This document shows, one piece after another, positions 26,172-38,485 of a stretch of DNA of 64,000 nucleotides. The translations under genes were made by a program, and so were the position numbers. The stretch spans positions 415,670 to 479,669 of the forward strand of contig VCJN01003259.1 of the NCBI GenBank assembly GCA_006384855.1, given 5' to 3'. This stretch comes from Tetraselmis striata. Lineage: Eukaryota > Chlorophyta > Chlorodendrophyceae > Chlorodendrales > Chlorodendraceae. The stretch's first letter is position 1; each line of letters starts with the position of its first letter. The notes beneath the pieces are model-generated. The model was not told the origin of the DNA, made no database searches, and worked only from the letters and a program-made list of their open reading frames with translations.

Positions 26172-29100
26172 CTAAGATGTCTTCCCCTTGTTTCCTCTCT
26201 TCAAGCGGCCGCCGGTGGCTTGGGGCGCCGTCGCGGCGGCGTCACCGGCCGTCGCCGCCTCGGCGTCCGCCACCATTTGCTGCACTTCCGCGCTGCCGGG
26301 GTGCGCGCGCCGGGCGGCGGCGAGGTCAGCCGCGAGGCCCAGGCGGCCCGCGGCGGCCCGGTTGGCGGCGCTGCCGGCGCAGAGGTGCGACACGGCGTCG
26401 CACGCGTTGGCCACCACTGACACGTGCCCCGCCGCGTGCGCGCGCAGCGCCATCTGCACGTCCGCGAGCAGCCCCAGGCGCGCCGCCGCCGCCTGGTTGC
26501 CGCCGTTGCCCGCGCACACGCGGCCCACTGCGCAGCAGGCGTGCGCGGCGACGGTGTAGTGCACCGAGCCGTGCGCCTGCAGCACCGCCTGCAGGTTGGC
26601 CAGCAGCCCGAGGCGGCCCGCCTCCGCCTGGTTGTTGGCGTCCGCGTAGCAGAGCGTCATCACCGCCGCGCACGCGGGGTTGGCCACGCCCGGGTCGCGC
26701 AGCCCGTGGCCGCGCAGCACGCCCTGCAGGTCGCCCAGCAGCCCCTGCCAGCCCGCCTCCGCCGCGTTGGCGCCGTTGTTCACGCAGAGCCCCGGCGACC
26801 GCGGACGCCACCTCGCGCGCCACGCGCCCGCTGCCCGCGTGCGCCTGCAGCGCGCCCTGCAGGTCGCCCAGCAGCCCCGCCTCGCCCGCCGCCGCCTGGT
26901 TGGGGCCGCTGTTGGCGCAGATGGCCAGCACCGCGCCGCACACGTGCGCCACCAGCTCGGGCGCCGTCCCGCCATGCGTGCGCAGCGCGGCCTGCCCGGA
27001 GGCACGGAAGCGGGCAGCGCCAAGCGTCAACATCAACGCCGCGTCAACCATCACATTTCAACCATCGCAATTCAACCATTCACGATACCTTGATGGCGAT
27101 GAGACAATATATTCCGGCCTGGATTCCCCAAGCGCTTTCTCTATGAATGCTCACCCAAGTAATGCCGTCCGCCGATATCGGCACTTGTCGTATAGGAAGG
27201 AGGCGATGCCCTTAAAACCACCAACAGCTACACGTAAGGTCCCCCCCCCCCCCCCCCCCTCTCACCTCTCTATGTATACAATTAAATGTTAATGTACAAT
27301 TTACTTAATATGTAAATATGTAAACATAAAACAAAAATATGTACACATCAAACATACACGGCTATATACAGACGCATGTAGACATATGTATTCGGGCGCC
27401 AACGCGGTACTAAGAACACCATGAACGAGACGCTGTCCTGCCTGTAGAGGAACCATTAAGAAAAAGTTCTCATGGGTTGCTAGGAGGCCCAACTTTAGGC
27501 TTGTGATGAGAGTTCGTAGCGATGAGTTCACACCCGTACACATGTCCACGAAAAAAAGCATGTAGAACATGTGCACATCTCTACACATCTGAAGGCACCA
27601 GCAGGTGATCCGGTGCGACAGTTGGTGCCGCTGCTTACCTGCAGGTCGGGCAGCAGCCCCAGCGCCGCCGCCTCGCCCTGCGCGCCTCCGTGGTTGAGGC
27701 ACAGCGCGCGCACCGCGCCGCAGGCCGCCTCCGCCACGCGGGCGTGCCCGCCGCCGAAGTCGCGCAGGCAGCCGCGCACCTCGGCCAGCAGCCCCAGGCG
27801 CAGCGCCTCGTCGCGCCCCGAAGACGAGCCGCCCGCGATGGTGGCCACCGCGCCGCAGAGCGCCGCCACGCCGTCGGCGTCCGCCTTGCTGGGGGACTGC
27901 AGCCGGCTAGCCAAGCTCACCTGCAGGCGGCGGCGCGGCCAGCCATGCCGCCGGTCAGCCCCACGCAGCACCGAGGACTTCGCGGCCACAACTACGGGTG
28001 CCGGTGCACCTACGAGAACGCTCACTATTAGCCTCAAATTGGGCTTGCATGCCACCTAAAAACATTCGCTGATATAGTTCCGCTATGATAAGTTCGTCGA
28101 CATTTGACCTCTGGGAGGAAGAACAGCTTCTCAATTGCGGTGTTCTTATCACCGCGCCGGAAACCGCATGCCTGCCGGCGTGAAATGGCTTGTCGCGGGC
28201 CGCATTGCCTCATCAAGCAACTGACTATAAGGGCGCCGCAGTGCTTTTGCCTAGCAATGGGCCTTTCAGCAAGGCGCCGGGGACCCTCAGCAGTACGCAC
28301 ATGGAGGCTCACCTACCTCTCACCTACACCATACATATGCTCAGATGGATAAGCCCCCTCCCCCCCCCCCCCTGGCTCCCCATCCCCCCCCTTGCAGCGG
28401 GGTGGCACTTGCCTGCATGGTGCCCAGTATCCCGCTGCGCGCCGCGTCCTCCGCATTGGCGCTGCTACCCTCGCACACGTCGCTCACTGCGGCCGCCACT
28501 GCCCCGACAAGCGCACTACCGGGTGGCGCATGCATCAGCATGCCCGCCAGCTGCCCCAGCAGCCCTGCGCGCGCCGCCTCCTCCGCGTGCCCTGCGTGCC
28601 CGCGGCACAGCGCCGACACCGCCTGGCATGCGGCGTCCATCAGCTCCGCGCCCGGGTCGGGGTGCGCCGCCAGCGCGGCCACCAGCAGCCCGAGCAACCC
28701 CAGCCGCGCCGCCTCCTCCACGCTGCCGCCGTTGCCCGCACACAGCGCCGCCAGCGCAGCGGCGCCCTCCGCCGCGACGCCCTCGTGGGTCGCGCCGTGC
28801 GCCTCCAGTGCGGCCCCCACCTCAGCGAGCAGCCCCAGCGAGGCCGCCTCCGCCTGGTTACGCGCGTGGCCGGCGCAGCAGGAGGCAAGCGCGCCGCACG
28901 CGTGCTGCGCCACGCCCGGGAGCTCCACGCCGTGCGCGTGCAGCACCGCCGCCAGCTGCGCCAGCATCCCCAGCCGGCCCGCCTCCTCCTGCTGCGCCGC
29001 CCCGCCGCCGACCAGCGCGCGCAGCGCCGTGCAAGCGCGCTCCGCGGCGGCGGGGTTGCCCTGCGCCGTGCGCCGCCATCCCGGGCGCCAGCTCCGCCAG

Positions 29101-32100
29101 CAGCCGCAGCCGGTGCGCCTCTTCGCGGTTGGCGGCGTTGCCGTGGCACAGCGTGGCCACCGCCGCGCACGCCGCGTCCAGCACGCGCACGTCCTCCGCG
29201 CCATGCTGCCGCAGCGCGGACGCCAGGTCCGCCAGCAGCCGCAGCCGGCCCGCCTCCGCCTGCACCGACGCGTTGCCAACCGCGATGGCCCACACGGCGG
29301 AGCAGGCCGGCTCCACGACCCCGGGGTGCGTCGCGCCGTGCGCGCGCAGCACGCCCTGCAGGTCCTCCAGCAGTCCCAGCCGCCGCGCCTCCCCCTGAGA
29401 ACCGGAAGGCAACAGGCGAGCCGGAGGGGGGGTGGGTCGGGCGGGGGGGGGGGGGGGGGGGGGCGTCAGTCCGCGCACTTGCTGACGCCCTGCGCGTACA
29501 GATGCCAGCGGAGCAGGGCACCCGGTGTCCCGCCGTTTCTGCATTATGTTTCGCCGTATTTTCTCCGATTCCGGGCACCGTCCTTCCAATCCAGGCAGCC
29601 GGAGTGGGTCGATGATGAGCCCTGGCTGCTAGCTTCCCCAGAGCCCCAATGCTGCGAGTTACCCGGGGCAGGCGATTGCCGGCCTGGTTGAGCTACCCCT
29701 GATTGCTTAGGGCTTCGTCCCCTCTACAGGGCTCTATGTATTGCCTGCGTGAATGGCTGCAACACGTGGCGGGTGCGGTGCGGCTGCACCCGATCAGAAT
29801 CCTACAATTGGAAACGCCAATGCTCCGCCCCCTCTTCCCCTCCTCACGCCCTCGCAATGCGCAACTCATCCCACGCCAAACTATCCCAGACGGGCTCCTC
29901 CGCTCAAATGTTACGAGAACAAGTCCGTTTTGGGAGGGGCGAGAAAGGCTGTAGATGTCAGGGCCTGGGCAACTAGCCACAAGGGAGTCTGCTCAGCCTG
30001 GGAGGATTGGGGGAGGGGGAGGGGGTGGGGGTGGGGGCCGCGCCTGGTTGTCGGACTGCCCGGCGCAGATGTTCATCAGCGCCGCGCACGCCGGCTCCAT
30101 CGTCCCGGCGTCGCCGTTGGTGTGCCAGCGCAGCGCCGCCTGCAGGTCCGCGATGAGGCCCAGCTCCCCGGCGATCACAGCGTTGTCCCCCGTCTGGATG
30201 AGGACCATGGGCGAGCATCAAGATGTCAGTCTCCTTAAGGATGCCGTTGGAGAGGGGGGCAGGAGGGGTCCGGAGATAGACAGTGAAGATCTAGAGGACC
30301 TCCAGGCGATGTGCATACGTAGGAGGAGAAGGAGGGGAGCATCGCAGAGAAGGAGGGGGGAGGAAAGGGGGGTGAAGTGGGGATGGCTGGCAGGTGGGCC
30401 AGATCTCGCAGTACAGCTGCTGTCACCTGGCACACGGCCCATATGGCGGCGCACGCACACTCTGTGAGCTCCGTGCTGAGCGCGCCATGCGCCTGCAGCG
30501 CCGCCTGCGTGTCTGCAAGCAACCCAGCCGCGCCGGCGGCGGCCTGGTTGGCGGGGCAGTGCGCGCAGAGCGCCTCCACCGCCGCGCAGGCGGCCGTGGC
30601 GATGTCCACGTGGTGCGGGCCGTGCCCCTGCAGCACCAGCTGCATCTCCCCCAGCAGCCCGAGCTCCCCCGCGGCCGCCTCGTTGTCCGGCATGTCAGCG
30701 GCAACGGCGCGCACCGCACCGCACGCCGCGCGCACGATGCCGAGGTCGGTGGCGCCGTGCCAGCGCAGCGTCGCCTGCAGGTCCGACAGCAGGGGCCTGG
30801 CCTCATTCTGGTTGGCGGGGTGCCCGGCGCACAGCGCCGCCACCGCGGCCGCTGTGGACTCGGAGGTCGCGGGGTCGAGCCGGCCCAGAGCGCGCTGGCA
30901 GTCCTCCAGCAGGCCAAGCTCCCCGGCGGCCGACTGGTTGGGCGCACAGTCGGCACAGATGGCGGCCAACGCGGCCGTCGACGCGGCCACGGCGCCGGTG
31001 TCCGTCGCGCCGTGCGCGCGCAGCACTGCCTGCAGCTCCGGCAGCAGCCCCGCCGCGGCGGCGGCGGCCTGGTTGGCCTCCTCGCCGCGCACCACGCGCT
31101 CCACCGCCCGCGCAGCGGCCTCCGCCACTGCGGCGCCGCTCGAGGCGTGGCTGCGCTTCAGCACCGCGCGCAGATCGGGCAACAGACCGAGTCGCGCGGC
31201 CTCCGCCTGGTTGGCGGCAGAGTCGGCGACGAGCGTGATAAGCGCGACGCAGGCCTCCTCCAGCGCCGCGACAGCGGGGCCGTCGTCCTCCGGCGCGGCG
31301 CCGCTGTGCCCTCGGATCACCGCCTGCAGGGCCGGCAGCACGCGCAGCCGGCCCGCTTCTGCGCCGTTGGCGCGGTGGCCAGCGCACATGTTGGTGACCA
31401 TACTGCAGGCGTGGCGCGCCATCTCGGCGTCGGAGGCCCCGTGCGCGACCAGCGCTGGCAGGATGTCGCGCAGCAGGCCCAGCCGGGCAGCTTGAACCTG
31501 CGGGAAGGGGCGACAGCAGGGGAGCGGCGGCAACATTGCGTCAGGGCTGCCACTCTCAAGCGCGGTGCCCAACCACCCGCCGCGCCTCTTGTCGACATAG
31601 GACTGTGACGGCTTTCAAAACACCTCTTTCGCGGTATATATGATTCCCCGACATTGCGGCATTTGCGAGATAGATACCGCGAGGTGGCGGCATTTCTAAT
31701 TTCTTGCTTTGCCCGATCGTAGCAGTACCAGCACACCAGCACAAAACTGCTCAAGCGCGACCTCATCTTATTATCTGGAGGCAATTACAGCTCATAATTG
31801 CCAGTGAGCCGAGCAGGCGGGCACAATCGAAAATGCACAATCGCGAGTTGTTGTGCACACAACTTATTCAGGCAAGCTGGCGAGAACATCACTGATACTT
31901 TGGCGAAAAGACAGCATAGTGTAGTATAGATAGTTAGTAAAGAACAACCGAGGCAACATGTACCGAAATGGAGTTCCATATTAATCATGTAATACTTTGG
32001 CGCATCTTAATGGGCTCGGACGACGACGGAAGGGCAAAAGCTCGGCATGAAGAATAGCAATTCGACAGCAATACCGACTCCAGAAACGTGTGGGAGGACA

Positions 32101-34464
32101 AAGGGCGCACACCTGCGAGCCGACGCTGGCCAGCCACGTGTGGTTCAGCGCAACGCAGGCCTGCAGCGCGACACCCGCGTTGGTGGCGCCGTGTGCCCGC
32201 AGTGCCGCGCCCAGCTCGGCCGCCAGACCGATGCGGGCTGCCTCCGCCTTGTTGGCAGGCGCGTTGGTGCAGATGGCGGCCAGCGCCGAGGCGGCGGCAA
32301 AGGCAATGCCGGGGTGGGCGGGGCCGTGGCGGCCCAGCGCGCCCTGCAGCTCCGCCAGCAGCCCCAGCTGGCCTGCCTCAAGCTTATTGGGCGTGCAGCT
32401 GGAGCAGATTGCTAGCACGGCCTTGCAGGCGCGCTCCGCGTCCGTGGGGCGCTCCCGGCCGCGGATGCGCAGCACAGCTAGCAGGTCGGCCAGCAGGCCC
32501 AGCCGACCCGCCTCGAGCTGGTTGCTCTCGTGGCGCGAGCAGAGCGCCATCACTGCGCCCGCGGCGGCGCTGTACTGCGGCACCGCCGGCTCGCCTCTTG
32601 TCGCGTGCGCACGCAACACGGCCTGGAAGTCGGCCAGGAGGCCGAGCCGCCCTGCCTCGCCTTGGTTGGCGCGCACCTAGCAGCGAAAAAGTATCATCGT
32701 CTTCGATCAGCCACGCGCCATCAAATTTATGAGAAAATGACACATAAAGGATTACATCGAATGTTGCAGCAAAGACAATGAATACCATTACAGATGGCAG
32801 CTGAAGATGTATAACAGGATGATGACAGGACATGCTTTGGCGCAGATATATGTTAAGATGTGAAGCACCATGTATCAGTGCAGTTTATGCATTGTGAATG
32901 TACGAATACGACTATTGGTACTATTGACATGCACCTGCAGTAGGACAAATGTACACACGTATAGATATGTAACGAATGCATGGATACAGTAACGATTGCG
33001 GAATTATAAGTGAAATCATGGCCATAGGGTGCGTCCTCCCTGCCGCCCTCCTATCACATGCGGCTGGCGCACCTTGCTGCAAACGTTAGCCGTTGCCACC
33101 GCCATGATGCCCACCACCTCGGGCTCAGTGCCGCCGTGCGCTCGGAGCGCTGCGCGCAGCTCACCCACCAGACCCAGTTTGCCAGCCTCCACCTGGAACC
33201 AGCAGCGCACTGCATGTGAGAGAACTTGTACCACGGACCAAGCTATTATCATAATGCCTGTCAGCCACCTTCACCTCGTGTGATGGTAATTCTCTTTCTC
33301 CCTCTCTCTACCAAGGACCAAGGACGGAGAGAGGAGGGGATAGGATGGAACTTCTTGCTGGTGTCCTTTACGTATGTCCCTATCCACGTGCTGGCTGATT
33401 ACGTGTATGTATTTGTGGAAAGGTGAATAGACTGAACAGACTTACCACTTGTGCTGGGGGATCACATACGCATAGAGAGGCAAAGGGTCGAAGCACTGGT
33501 AAAGCACTGAGAGGCTAAGTTGCTATATAAATTTGGACAAAGCGTCATGCCATCAGTGAGTACTTTGTTGCTGCAGCTGCCATGCTCGCAGTAACCGGCG
33601 GCTGTAGGTGGCGACGCTCTACGGGTTCAGACGCGGTAGTAAGAACACTGCGAGTAGGAATCTGCCCTGCCTGCTAGAGGTCAAATGTAGGCGGAACTAT
33701 AGCGGAAGTACAGCGAATGTTCTTATGGATTGCATGCAGGCCCGATTCGAGGCTAACTATCTGGGCTCTTCTTATAGGCGCGTTGGTACCCGTCGTTCAT
33801 CACGATGTAACGACGTCTTGTTCAGCCTTGCGCTTTGTGCTTGAGGACTGAGACACCACAACACCTGGCCAACGTCCTCACTCGCGGTGCTGACGATCGC
33901 GTCGACGCACATGTCAGGATAGGGCGACGAGGCTAGCGGGGCGCACCTGGTTGGCGGTACAGTGGTAGCATAGGTGTGCGACCATGGAGCCCACAGCGGC
34001 TGCCAGGCCTGCGTGGCGCCGCCCATGGGCCGTCATGGCAGCCGCCAGGTCGCGGAGGAGCCCAAGGCGGCCGGCGTGCGACTGGCTGGCAGGGTCCGAG
34101 GGGCAGACGGCGCGCATGGCGGACGCCACCTCCTTGGCCACCTCCGGCAAGGCGCCCGTGGCCACCCGCAGCGCGGCCTGCAGCTCGACAAGCACATCCA
34201 GCCGGGAGGCCTCCACCTTGTTGGGGCGGCAATGCGTGCAGAGCGCCGCCAGGGCGGCGACCAGGGCGGCAGTTGCGGCGGGGACGCCGGCGGAGTGGGC
34301 GCGCAGCGCGGCTTGGAGGTCGGCAATAAGCCCCAGGCGGCCCGCCTCCGCTTTGGCCGGCCCCGAGCTACCCAGCAGCGCCAGCAGCGCTCGGCAGACG
34401 CGCTCCGCGATGCCTGCGCGAGACAGGCCGAGCGTGCGCAGTACCGCCTGTTGGGTTGAAGGGG

Positions 34465-34495
<31 letters not shown>

Positions 34496-37400
34496 TTCGT
34501 GCATGGCGGAGCTTCAGAGCTTCAGACAGTCTCTCTTGTCTCAAACAGAGTGCACTCGAGTCGACTAGCTCCTAGTTCCAAGCTTGGTTGACTCATCTAG
34601 AAAACTGAAAACAAAATAAAATTGTTGCTGCGTGACATTCAAAGTCGACACACGCTGTGCGATTCATGAAGGCAACATCGCTGTGAGGTCATCAGTCTTT
34701 AACATCCAAAAACATCCAGTTATTGCACCAGAATAATTGGTACTATGGCTAGAAAGGCAATCGATAGTCAGCAATGGTAAAAGGATCCAATCAATCGCGT
34801 ATATGGGCAAGGTCAACACTTCGGGGCGCCAGTCGGAGGGGGGGGACTTGCCTGTAGATCGGCGATCAGGCCGAGCTTCACGCCGGCATCCCCAGCACTC
34901 TCCGCGCCGCGGCAGATGGCAGTCAGCGCCGCACAGCCCGCCTCCGCGATGCCGGCGTGCGTGGAGCCGTGTGTCTGCAGCGTCACCTGCAGGTCAGGCA
35001 GCAGCCCAAGCGCCAGGGCCTTGGCCGCGCTGGCGCCCGACGCGGCCGCCAGGGCTGTGATGGCGCCACAGGTGTACTCCGCAACGCCGGTGTGGCTCGA
35101 CCCGTGCGTCTGCAGAGCCGCCTGCAGCCCAGGCAGCGCCCCCAGGCGGGCGGCCTCTGCCCAGGCGGCGCCGCTCTTGGCGCAGACAGCGGAGAGCGCA
35201 AAGGGGGCGCGTTCTGCGACGCCGGCATGGGCCTCTCCGTGACCCGACAGCGTGCTCTGCAGCTCAGAGAGCAGCCCCATCTTCACAGCTTCGGCCTACA
35301 CGTGAAAAGCACAAGTGGCGGTTAAAACCCCGACAGAGGAGGAGTACTGCTCGGTCAGCATGTTAGACACAACAAAATATGCGTACGGATGTTTGTTTTC
35401 GGATTGGGATGGGGGAGGGTCGGGCAGTTCAGCTTCAGACCTGCAGACGTAAGCTGTTGGCGCAGATGTTGCCCACCGCAGCACAGGCCGTCTCGCACAG
35501 CAGGCCGTCGCCCGGCGCAGTGGCCTCCCGTAGCACAGCCTGCAGCGCGCGCAGGGCGTCCAGCCACGTGTCCTCCGGCGTATCGCGCAGCGCCGTGCCG
35601 GTGCACGCTGCGCGCACAAGCCTGGCGGCCGCGAGCACCGCCGCCGGCGGTGTGCGGGCGCTCTGCTGCAGCGTCTCGATTGCGGCTGGCAAGTCAGCAG
35701 TGGCTGCCCTCATCGTCTTGCTAAGTTCAGCTTCGCGCGGCTTGGGTCCCGCCGGCTTGGCTTCATTGGGCCTGGGCTTGATGCCTGGGTTGGATGCAGC
35801 CGGATCACCCCCCAATGGTTGCGCCATCGGCGACTCGGCATGCGACAGTGCAGGTTCTACCACCCCCGCTTTCTCCGCCTTGGCTTTGTCTGCCCTCGGC
35901 TCATCTGGCTTTGCCTCTCCGGGCTTGGCCCTATCAGTTGGCTTCGATCCGGGTGGTTCGTGCCTTGCTGGTCGAGTCTCCACCGGCTTGGCCAGTGGCG
36001 GCAATGACTGTGCTCGCTTTGACTGTTGTGCCTCGCTCTGCCCAGGCTTTGCTTCTGCTGGCTTTCCGTCTGCAAAGTCGGGCTCAGCCTGCGCCGATTC
36101 AGCATTGACATCATCCGACTTCCCCTCAGGCACGACAGTCTCATCCGGCGTGGGGCTGCGTTCTTCATGGGCCAGCAGCTTGAGGTCCAAGGGGGGTGGG
36201 TTGGCTGGCACGGGTTTCAGCAGCATCGGTGCCTCGCTGATGCCAGGCAGCGTGGAGTCATTTCTGCTGAGCTGAGTCGCCGCCGGCATAGCCTCCTTAT
36301 GGGCACGTGGCACTGTGTCAGGGACGGCTGGTACAGAGCGGTCTGGGGCGTTGGCAGTCTGGCTGTGAGGGGAGCTTGGACCGGGCATTACTGGATGAAA
36401 CAATTTATGAGAGGCATCTCCGCCTCCGGGACTAGCGATGGCCGCCAGTGCTGCGAGCGGTGGGGGCGGCGTAGCGGACGCCTGGGCGCCGTTGATTGGG
36501 GGCAGGATGCTCTTGGGGCTGCCCTCTCCTGCAGCGGAGGTCGCAGTCCCCTTGACGGGGCTAGGACTGCCTGTCCGGCCATCTGTGGGCGCCTGCTTCC
36601 CAGCTCTGCTGGTGCCGGCGGGAGGGCCGGGCAGCGGCGGCAGCGCAGTGGCGTTTGGGGAGCCGGTCTCCGGGAAGCTTAGCACAGGCTTGTTGGCGGC
36701 GCTGGGTTTGGGGCGGGCGCCGCCTGGGGACCTGGCTGCTTTGGGAGGGCTGTCCGAGAGAGAGAATGACGGCAGTGACACCACTGAGCTTGTGAGTGGC
36801 GGCAGCGCCAGAGGGCTGGGTGGCTGCGGCGCCTCAGGTGCGCTGGTTTGCGCAAGTGATGGCGCCGCTGCGGCGTAGGGAGAATGAGGGTGGGCACCTC
36901 CCGGCGAGTCCAGCGTTGGGGGTAGGGGCGGCACCCGGCTCATGGGTGGCGGAGAGGCGGCGCGGCTGCGTGTTGCCCTCGTTGGGCTGCCCCAGTCGCT
37001 CCACTGGCCGTTGCCATTGCCAGGACCGCCGTGCGTGGGGAGGCGCTGGGGGCTTCCGACAGCGGAGCCGGACTGGCTGTTGGGCTGGATGGCCAGAACC
37101 TCCGCCGTGCGGCTGGTTGCAGGTGACTGCGAGCCGCGGGCGGGGAGGCGGCTGTTGCTGTGCGGGAGCGAGGGGCGCTTCTTCTCGAAGAAGATGAGGT
37201 CCATGGGCGTGAAGCCTGCCTGCGTGAGAAACTCCGCTGGCGCCGCCGCGAGGTGCTCGGCTGTGCGTACCCCCAGGCGCGCCAATGACGAAATCGTCGA
37301 GCGCTCCAGCTGGCACTCCTCCATGAGAAAGGCATCCACCTCGGCGCTTATCAGAAAGCCGCCGGGCGGCACCCCGCCTGGCACGCTGCGCGCAGCCACA

Positions 37401-38072
37401 TCTGCTACCAGTGCATCCATACCCGCCCCATTGCCTGACAGGTCATGCAGTGCACCACCGCCGCGTGCCTCCCTGCACAGTTCAGCACAAGTGCCTGAAG
37501 TCAGGGCAAGCCCTGCCATTGGCACTACCCCACGGTGTCGCTCGGCGAGAGCAGATTGAGGGGAGAGGATAAGGAAATACTTGCCAGCAGCAGAGCACTG
37601 CGGAATGTGACATGGCATAGTCAAGCCAGGGTGCATTTGCATTCAGCAACTGATAGATGTCTTTTAGTGATCATTGTGGGCTGAGACCGGATGGGAGAAG
37701 CCATTTTTCCTGAGCAGCACTGTGACTGGAGGCATCTGATTGTGATTGTACGTTTGGGAGGCATGGGAGGTGAGAGATGGCGGTTGGCTGGGAGCCTGAC
37801 TCAGGGTGGACTATAGCATTAACGCACACATTGAGAAAGAAGAATGGCTGGGGGATTGGAGCCTATCGAATGGAAGGTGATAAGGCATTAGCGCATTAGC
37901 GCAGGAGTGCATGGCTGAAGAGGGATATTTAGGTAAATAAGAAAGTAGCATCCGTGCCCAGGTGGTGAAAAACTCCGTGCCCCGGTGGCTGAGCCCAAGC
38001 AGTGCGAAAGGAGTAAGTTGGATCAGAAATAGCAGCTCGATGAACTCATCAGCGTAATGGTGCAGCGCGAAA

Positions 38073-38105
<33 letters not shown>

Positions 38106-38485
38106 AGGGTGGCAACCCACCCGAGGGGGCCGCGCCAGTGTTCAGTCTGCAGCATTTCACGCTCGACCGCCACGAAGAGGAGAGACTCAGGGCGGCTCTC
38201 GCGCGCGTGACTAAACTCCAGGTAGGTGTCGTCCACAACACCGATGCCCTGCTCGACCGCTGCGACCTTGTCGCGGTATGCCGCGCTGGCCAGCACGACC
38301 ACCACGCGGCTGTCGTCGATGGCGGAGCGCAGCGCTGCCTTGCCGGGGGGGACGGGGCCCTGGTGCGTGCACGCCTGCAGCCCCGCCGACCAAAGCGCCG
38401 CGTTCACCGCCGCTGCTGTTTCTTGACTTGGTCCCCAGTCGTGTGATATGTAGGCGTCGTATTTGAAGGACGATGCCCCTTGCAT
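26172..38485 (-). CDS. TIR - SAM-like - disordered linker - armadillo-repeat array protein
   Basis: Exons, 5' to 3': 38485-38117, 37540-35441, 35295-34852, 34447-33947, 33192-33073, 32676-32113, 31497-30427, 30193-30044, 29394-28413, 27920-27639 and 26991-26172; about 2466 residues. The ATG follows an in-frame TGA directly. Residues 9-123 are a TIR domain (YDAYISHDWG; AIDDSRVVVVLASAAY; YLEFSHAR; W117-R-G-P-L-G). Its end continues in exon 2 (HDLSGNGAGMDALVADV). TIR domains with the conserved Glu can cleave NAD+; here that would be Glu90. Next comes a SAM-like helical segment (VDAFLMEECQLE to GFTPMDLIFFEKK), then about 480 Pro/Ser/Lys-rich disordered residues. About 38 repeats of 42-43 residues follow, typified by EAGRLGLLADLQAALRAHG and ACAALxALCAGNxANQ, which fit armadillo repeats. 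All ARM introns are phase 0, and three use GC donors. One-base frameshifts occur at 29052-29055 and 26790-26793. The exon 1/2 junction is the least certain. A cytosolic sensor is inferred. Confidence 0.8.
27394..27535 (+). mobile_element. MITE-like element, copy 3
   Basis: About 142 bp inside the last intron of the TIR-ARM gene. It starts GGGCGCCAACGCGGTACTAA and ends TTCACACCC, with CTGCCTGTAGAGG and CTAGGAGGCCCAA as family landmarks. Confidence 0.6.
27996..28165 (-). mobile_element. MITE-like element, copy 4
   Basis: About 170 bp. The outer end GTTCTTATCACCGCGCCGG is the reverse complement of the family terminus; the inner end is GGGTGCCGGTGCACC. Together with copy 3 in the opposite orientation it flanks exon 10 (27639-27920) of the TIR-ARM gene. 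Confidence 0.7.
33623..33791 (+). mobile_element. MITE-like element, copy 5
   Basis: The 169-bp copy with the clearest structure: start GGGTTCAGACGCGGTAGTAA, end GCGCGTTGGTACCC. Internal CTGCCTGCTAGAGGTCAAAT and GCGAATGTTCTTATGG. It lies in the intron between ARM exons 4 and 5. Confidence 0.75.
34468..34495 (+). repeat. poly-G tract (28 nt; poly-C in the sense strand of the gene)
   Basis: Lies in the intron just upstream of ARM exon 4, about 20 nt before the acceptor. Confidence 0.9.
38073..38103 (+). repeat. poly-G tract (31 nt; poly-C in the sense strand)
   Basis: The longest homopolymer in the window, about 14 nt downstream of the donor that ends the TIR exon. Confidence 0.9.

Follow-up and report, generated by a model that had tools for sequence, protein, structure and literature searches.

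A TIR-SAM-armadillo gene family in the green alga Tetraselmis striata: candidate NLR-like receptors

Animal SARM1 is an NAD+ (nicotinamide adenine dinucleotide) hydrolase with the domain order ARM-SAM-SAM-TIR, ARM denoting armadillo repeats. A first-pass annotation of 64,000 nucleotides of the Tetraselmis striata genome (contig VCJN01003259.1, here C2631:415670-479669; the window) described a minus-strand gene at window positions 38485 to 26172 that carries the same types of modules in the opposite order. Is this a single gene, and would its product act as a switch like SARM1 or as something else? Searches of the 224 Mb assembly (2903 contigs) make the order TIR-SAM-ARM in one gene nearly certain. 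We favor, at a probability of about 55%, the reading that the gene encodes an intracellular NLR-like receptor that couples recognition to cell death.

A TIR domain, one SAM-like domain and an armadillo array in one gene

The gene starts with a TIR domain. In a hidden Markov model search with Pfam alone, the window TIR matches TIR_2 with E=3e-4 and 21.7 bits, below the curated cut-off of 28, which paralogous TIRs exceed. A profile of six other TIRs from the same genome (five with an ARM array and one without; the window TIR excluded) finds the spliced domain with E=2e-16. As located by Pfam TIR_2, this profile and the alignment, exon 1 (38121..38485, minus strand, as are all features of the gene) holds the start codon and the first to fourth strands, including a glutamate, E90, that is invariant in 7/7 aligned family TIRs. 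The last strand and a helix (GGALHDLSGN...) follow at the start of exon 2 (37382..37472). Splicing raises the profile score by 6.9 bits, from 52.5 bits for exon 1 alone to 59.4 bits for exons 1 and 2, and an intron lies at the matching TIR position in C2782 (GT-AG) and C1305 (GTAAGG donor).

The TIR domain is thus completed across the exon 1-2 junction and paralog C2782 holds TIR tail, SAM and ARM in an uninterrupted frame of 487 amino acids (aa), both of which argue for a single gene from TIR through ARM, as first annotated. The model is drawn from genomic sequence rather than transcripts, which gives some room to the alternative that two adjacent genes, one for TIR and one for ARM, were read as one. 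We rejected this alternative as highly improbable given the intron within the TIR domain, the gain in TIR score upon splicing, the C2782 frame and the recurrence of the same order on seven other contigs. Within exon 2 (35441..37472, GT donor), a single frame runs from the TIR tail through SAM and linker to the first repeat.

The SAM-like domain (37163..37366) is present as a single copy, not as a tandem pair, and ends C-terminally in KRP. Pfam recognises nothing in the window copy; of the eight homologous segments, six hit PF22931 SAM_TNK at E≤0.1. A profile of six SAM segments, with those of the window and C2782 left out, finds the window copy with E=3e-4 among 6536 open frames. Its structure model has five helices at a pLDDT (predicted local distance difference test) of 84.7; a PDB search with the SAM profile yielded no SAM hit with E below 0.92. 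On the strength of the modeled five-helix fold and the profile match we class the segment as a SAM domain, which bears out the annotated SAM-like helical segment. It is followed within exon 2 by a low-complexity linker rich in Pro, Ser, Ala and Lys, with a lead-in to the array (35555..37162). The exon 2 frame has no match to any Pfam family, including those of nucleoside triphosphatases (NTPases).

The armadillo array (26262..35554) spans exons 2 to 11. About 38 repeats had been annotated; the great length stands, and the count comes to 37 matches at domain E≤0.01, 31 of them above 20 bits, with a period of mostly 45 aa, as found by a profile built from 11 of the array's own units. The model of exon 7 (30427..31497), the longest ARM exon, has three helices in most repeats, and its fold search matches ARM chains, confirming, at the level of the model, an armadillo three-helix superhelix. 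For the same reasons HEAT and TPR were rejected as the repeat type. Pfam Arm or ARM_LRRK2 rises above cut-off in paralogs and in none of the window pieces scanned. SARM1 chains are absent among the best 50 matches listed of each ARM fold search, which decides nothing.

Exchanged effectors and variable repeats in a gene family

A DNA search with exon 9 returned at least 91 matches on at least 14 contigs. The order TIR-SAM-ARM is found on eight contigs: that of the window, C2782, C40, C2592, C1400, C765, C645 and C1704. The first-pass annotation had proposed an independently assembled or rearranged NAD+-linked sensor or death switch. The presence of this order on seven other contigs weakens the case for a unique, rearranged SARM1, and independent assembly seems the more likely of the two. 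C1305 has a TIR followed by ARM matches downstream, and no SAM was found in this locus; C1951 resembles a second C1305 copy, judged by match places only. On C554, weaker ARM matches follow an N-terminus without assigned domain, and on C40 the frame changes between SAM and ARM.

The genome contains 13 TIR_2 matches, six of them with an ARM array; the TIRs of the window, C2782 and C1305 are not among these 13. The TIR loci on C613, C828, C2490 and C200 (28.6 kb) have no ARM within 1.5 kb, and those on C200 (5 kb), C2273 and C1973 lie outside the ARM reading. Among the TIRs of five recent paralogs, the ratio of non-synonymous to synonymous substitution rates (dN/dS) is 0.29-0.84 and below 1 in 10/10 pairs.

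Two loci, both on C1484, have the order caspase-SAM-ARM. In one of them, an uninterrupted 373-aa frame encodes the second part of a Peptidase_C14 domain (E=2.6e-6) and SAM_TNK (E=1.6e-4; 22.1 of 25 bits, just below cut-off in this longer frame), and an ARM array built from the repeat of the window family comes next. The full caspase piece, joined by hand, reaches E=2.9e-21. SGHG and DACR, the usual caspase His and Cys motifs, are present. At the second locus, the matches cover positions 1-48 of the caspase profile, the SAM and the array. One array on C1484 has an open frame of 1320 aa that contains 29 repeats. Peptidase_C14 has five matches in the genome, on three contigs; the loci on C1979 and C201 have no ARM in the stretches read. 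Since TIR and caspase both precede SAM-ARM, the SAM-ARM part is, by sequence, common to the family, and the effector ahead of it differs, being TIR or caspase-like.

The repeats of an array differ in their mean amino acid identity, which is 78-85% for C2592, C1400, C765, C645 and C1704, 75-76% for C1484, 62% for C40, 59% for C2782 and 40% for the window. Using all units found by the ARM profile at E≤1e-3 (the C765, C1400 and C2592 loci read end inside the array), we counted codons that deviate from the commonest one and compared non-synonymous:synonymous counts in helix-3 columns 24, 25, 28, 31 and 32 with those in the rest. Seven of ten arrays have an excess in helix 3 (p<0.05, uncorrected), four of the seven at p = 0.03-0.05. 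The excess is strongest in a 31-unit array of C1484 (85:3 vs 128:59); the 14-unit array on the same contig (35:0 vs 60:32), C40 (33:3 vs 98:54), C1400 (11:0 vs 15:8), C765 (11:0 vs 18:10), C645 (10:0 vs 17:11) and C2782 (8:0 vs 34:21) make up the remainder. Helix 3 of ARM proteins lines the partner-binding groove, so these variable columns would face a ligand.

A subset of units picked by pattern (e.g. 4/7 on C1400 and 3/6 on C645, with three C1484 end units omitted) points in the same direction, with 52:2 vs 59:36 for C1484, 18:0 vs 24:16 for the TIR set, 32:5 vs 50:46 for C40 and 17:1 vs 37:15 (p=0.053) for C1704. Relative to the all-unit count, this subset inflated both identity (70-95%) and excess. 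In the pattern-picked units of C1484, the ratio of non-synonymous to synonymous polymorphism (pN/pS) in columns 24, 25, 28 and 32 is 1.43, vs 0.54 in the rest.

A receptor reading and its alternatives

Exchange of the effector and concentration of change in helix 3 of most other members favor a recognition receptor over a metabolic switch. The first-pass reading of the gene as SARM1 reversed omits both of these, and the multi-gene family as well. In the proposed mechanism, the C-terminal armadillo superhelix would serve as sensor for a ligand that is presumably foreign or marks self and non-self. Ligand binding would free the N-terminal part, and the SAM, standing in the place of the NTPase, would cluster activated copies. 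The N-terminal TIR would then be switched on by proximity to other TIRs, and the output would be cell death, by NAD+ cleavage in TIR members and by proteolysis in caspase members.

The window gene shares with SARM1 the combination of TIR, SAM and ARM modules in one protein, and SAM clustering and ARM control are proposed for both. The reversal claimed for it holds for the module types, whose order, TIR, one SAM, ARM, differs from ARM, tandem SAM, TIR of SARM1; the window gene has one SAM and is not alone in having this order. A metabolic switch would bind NAD+ or nicotinamide mononucleotide (NMN) in the array and restrain the TIR NADase until their ratio changes. Such a switch accords with the three shared module types, the confirmed ARM fold, the lack of a helix-3 excess in the window array and the family-invariant glutamate E90, which we infer to be the equivalent of SARM1 E642; four PDB alignments of the TIR profile stop before E90. 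The domain order need not matter for it: as reported in PMC7282519, SARM1 SAM joined to the N-terminus of a plant TIR (or, as unpublished data, to the C-terminus) activates the TIR, so that the order TIR-SAM is no obstacle to activation by clustering. We nevertheless consider the metabolic switch improbable, as the window gene has a single SAM rather than two and 37 repeats rather than a compact array, at other loci the SAM-ARM part is joined to a caspase, and a concentration of change in helix 3, as seen in most relatives, is unexpected for a metabolite pocket. Nucleotide sensing by ARM has no support here, the window repeats being too diverged to map the residues of the SARM1 pocket.

The PDB searches bear on the same alternative. 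The TIR profile found 16 matches, of which those that are TIRs come from plants and bacteria, the best being Roq1 (E=1.6e-4). No SARM1 chain is among the 16, which speaks against a SARM1-like switch while leaving kinship with SARM1 possible. A search with a single TIR-SAM sequence gave one chance-like match (E=0.94), and one with four canonical TIRs gave none at E≤0.01.

Several observations weigh against a receptor. SARM1 has a tryptophan four residues before the catalytic glutamate E642; it is missing four residues before E90, which makes NADase activity of the window TIR uncertain. Helix-3 excess is not significant in C2592 (11:1 vs 18:7, p=0.23) and C1704 (14:1 vs 32:10, p=0.26) and is absent from the window array (95:28 vs 480:171, p=0.50). 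In pattern-picked units of C40, pN/pS is 0.60 in columns 24, 25, 28 and 32 vs 0.49 in the rest, with no sign of positive selection. The helix-3 columns were fixed after inspection of the C1484, C40 and recent TIR units, and the repeats share ancestry, making the p-values too small and indicative only. Plain solvent exposure can explain part of the excess, and positive selection on these columns is not proven by such codon counts. The identity of 59-85% in the arrays other than that of the window does not exceed the 85% by which fungal repeats are classed as highly conserved. What the family binds, that it clusters and what it triggers are proposals, NTPase receptors may exist beside it, and the frame changes in exons 9 and 11 could reflect decay of the window copy.

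A structural role of the giant window member is also possible. The TIR would then mediate interactions without catalysis, and the ARM array would form a long rod that organises a complex, for instance in the flagellum. We regard this reading as unlikely. Returning to the receptor, the window gene is a giant, old-looking member of the family, whose array may serve a fixed ligand because its repeats are 40% alike and lack the excess in helix 3.

The receptor reading draws on a likeness to NLR/STAND proteins, with which the family shares an exchangeable N-terminal effector and C-terminal repeats; killing by the former and sensing by the latter are proposed. The difference is that no NB-ARC or NACHT lies between effector and sensor in the window gene. 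NB-ARC has no match in the genome among 79 candidates scored. NACHT has 12 matches, all above the family cut-off, on contigs other than the 14 with ARM. These matches and the recount with all units lowered our estimate for the receptor from 60% to the 55% given above. Plant and algal TIR-NB-LRR proteins likewise have an N-terminal TIR and C-terminal repeats, and the best PDB match of the TIR profile, Roq1, is in keeping with this; in contrast to them, the window gene has no NB-ARC and no LRR that we could find.

A parallel is offered by fungal NLRs with WD40, ANK or TPR repeats, such as HET-D/HET-E of Podospora. As described in two papers (PMC12222747, PMC4986451), their repeats are highly similar and four codon positions at the interaction surface are under diversifying selection. 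With these proteins the algal family shares an exchangeable N-terminal effector and, in most members other than the window gene, a tendency for change to fall at few positions of similar C-terminal repeats. It differs from them in having ARM repeats, a SAM in place of the NTPase and repeats that are less alike (59-85%), and diversifying selection is reported for the fungi, whereas the ARM repeats of most other algal members show a weaker, comparable pattern of codon counts.

We tentatively suggest, with somewhat less than even confidence, that green algae possess a separate type of receptor for immunity or self/non-self recognition, of independent origin, that lacks a nucleotide-binding switch and combines a variable ARM sensor, a SAM assembly module and exchangeable TIR or caspase effectors. 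The all-unit recount and the NACHT matches lowered this proposal too, from even odds. If it is true, receptors with a SARM1-like architecture evolved repeatedly, and ARM is to be added to LRR, WD40, ANK and TPR among the scaffolds that diversify for recognition. An NTPase switch is usually regarded as a requirement of NLR-type immunity. A repeat sensor coupled through SAM to TIR or caspase would suggest that clustering by itself can suffice, and the domain order would show that the parts of SARM1 assemble in reverse too. The helix-3 positions would amount to a direct prediction of the receptor binding site, and the C1484 arrays would offer a natural experiment on possible ways for an alga to diversify its recognition.

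In searches of the open-licence literature, neither TIR-SAM-ARM nor caspase-SAM-ARM proteins of algae turned up. Related combinations have been described. Green algae have TIR-NB-LRR genes (PMC7282519, PMC7145615), and NB-armadillo proteins are mentioned (PMC7145615). Intracellular TIR proteins of choanoflagellates are associated with Arm domains (PMC6040629), in a passage that describes neither domain order nor SAM nor repeat evolution. A eukaryote-wide TIR atlas places a few green-algal sequences in the clade of SARM1, in a section that gives no domain orders (PMC13142454). Searches of viral contigs with exon 7 and of prokaryote contigs with the C2592 SAM-ARM frame confirmed no relatives.

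Reading frame of the window gene and further loci

The gene boundaries agree with those first annotated: the ATG lies at 38485, with an in-frame TGA immediately before it, and the stop codon at 26174-26172. Eleven exons were laid out, all ten acceptors being AG, seven of ten donors GT and the other three, after exons 3, 8 and 9, GC. Downstream of exon 2 these are exon 3 (34852..35295), exon 4 (33947..34447), exon 5 (33073..33192), exon 6 (32113..32676), exon 7, exon 8 (30044..30193; the weakest splice call), exon 9 (28413..29394), exon 10 (27639..27920) and exon 11 with the stop codon (26172..26991). The introns contain long C or G homopolymer runs at ~38.1, 34.5, 29.4, 28.4 and 27.2 kb. A Pfam scan of nine open frames of at least 230 aa elsewhere in the window (overlapping frames on the other strand were partly scanned) gave nothing useful, and a tRNA search led nowhere.

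Exons 1-8, when spliced, can be read through for 1749 aa. One frame change occurs in exon 9, near 29.06 kb, and one in exon 11, near 26.79 kb. If the former is genuine, translation would terminate within exon 9, the part ahead of the frame change holding 24 repeats; a decaying copy would then make only TIR-SAM and ~24 repeats, or nothing. The lack of a helix-3 excess is compatible with decay, and the search turned up no near-identical copy to compare it with: outside this gene, the top-scoring match of exon 9 is 67% over 690 bases. Set against this, exons 1-8 and the downstream frames are otherwise open, and the repeats stay in register before and after each change. The assembly may also contain frame errors elsewhere, as in the TIR at C765:35-36 kb, which is split over frames and is possibly a real pseudogene. 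Decay of the window copy thus appears to be a slim prospect.

Further loci stand out in the genome. The stretch C1484:106016-130456, with its two caspase-like SAM-ARM loci, may be the more striking find compared with the window gene; one of its arrays combines the frame of 29 repeats with the strongest helix-3 excess. Other ARM arrays of the family lie behind a different, helical-looking N-terminus (DYLRR..., GGC.KV...) at C85:214.5-219.5 kb and C363:11.3-15.3 and 56-60 kb; Pfam gave no match to these N-terminal parts, which possibly represent a third effector. C765 carries a TIR-SAM-ARM gene and an inverted second copy (23.3-27.3 kb and 35.2-39.4 kb), the TIR of the latter being split over several frames; the inverted copy could stem from read or assembly errors or be a pseudogene. 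C828, C2490 and C200 hold TIR genes of the same class, and a C2490 segment starting IHASAGTFCAD is present three times. The best TIR_2 match of the genome (C613:103805-104098) belongs to a different kind of open frame, 1054 aa long, in which a hydrophobic stretch follows the TIR. The RuBisCO small subunit has one match, on C1745, whose sequence looks green-algal. Finally, a 488-aa open frame on the minus strand of C40 (92.9-94.4 kb), with ankyrin-like repeats as judged by eye, adjoins the TIR-SAM-ARM gene of that contig in the opposite orientation.

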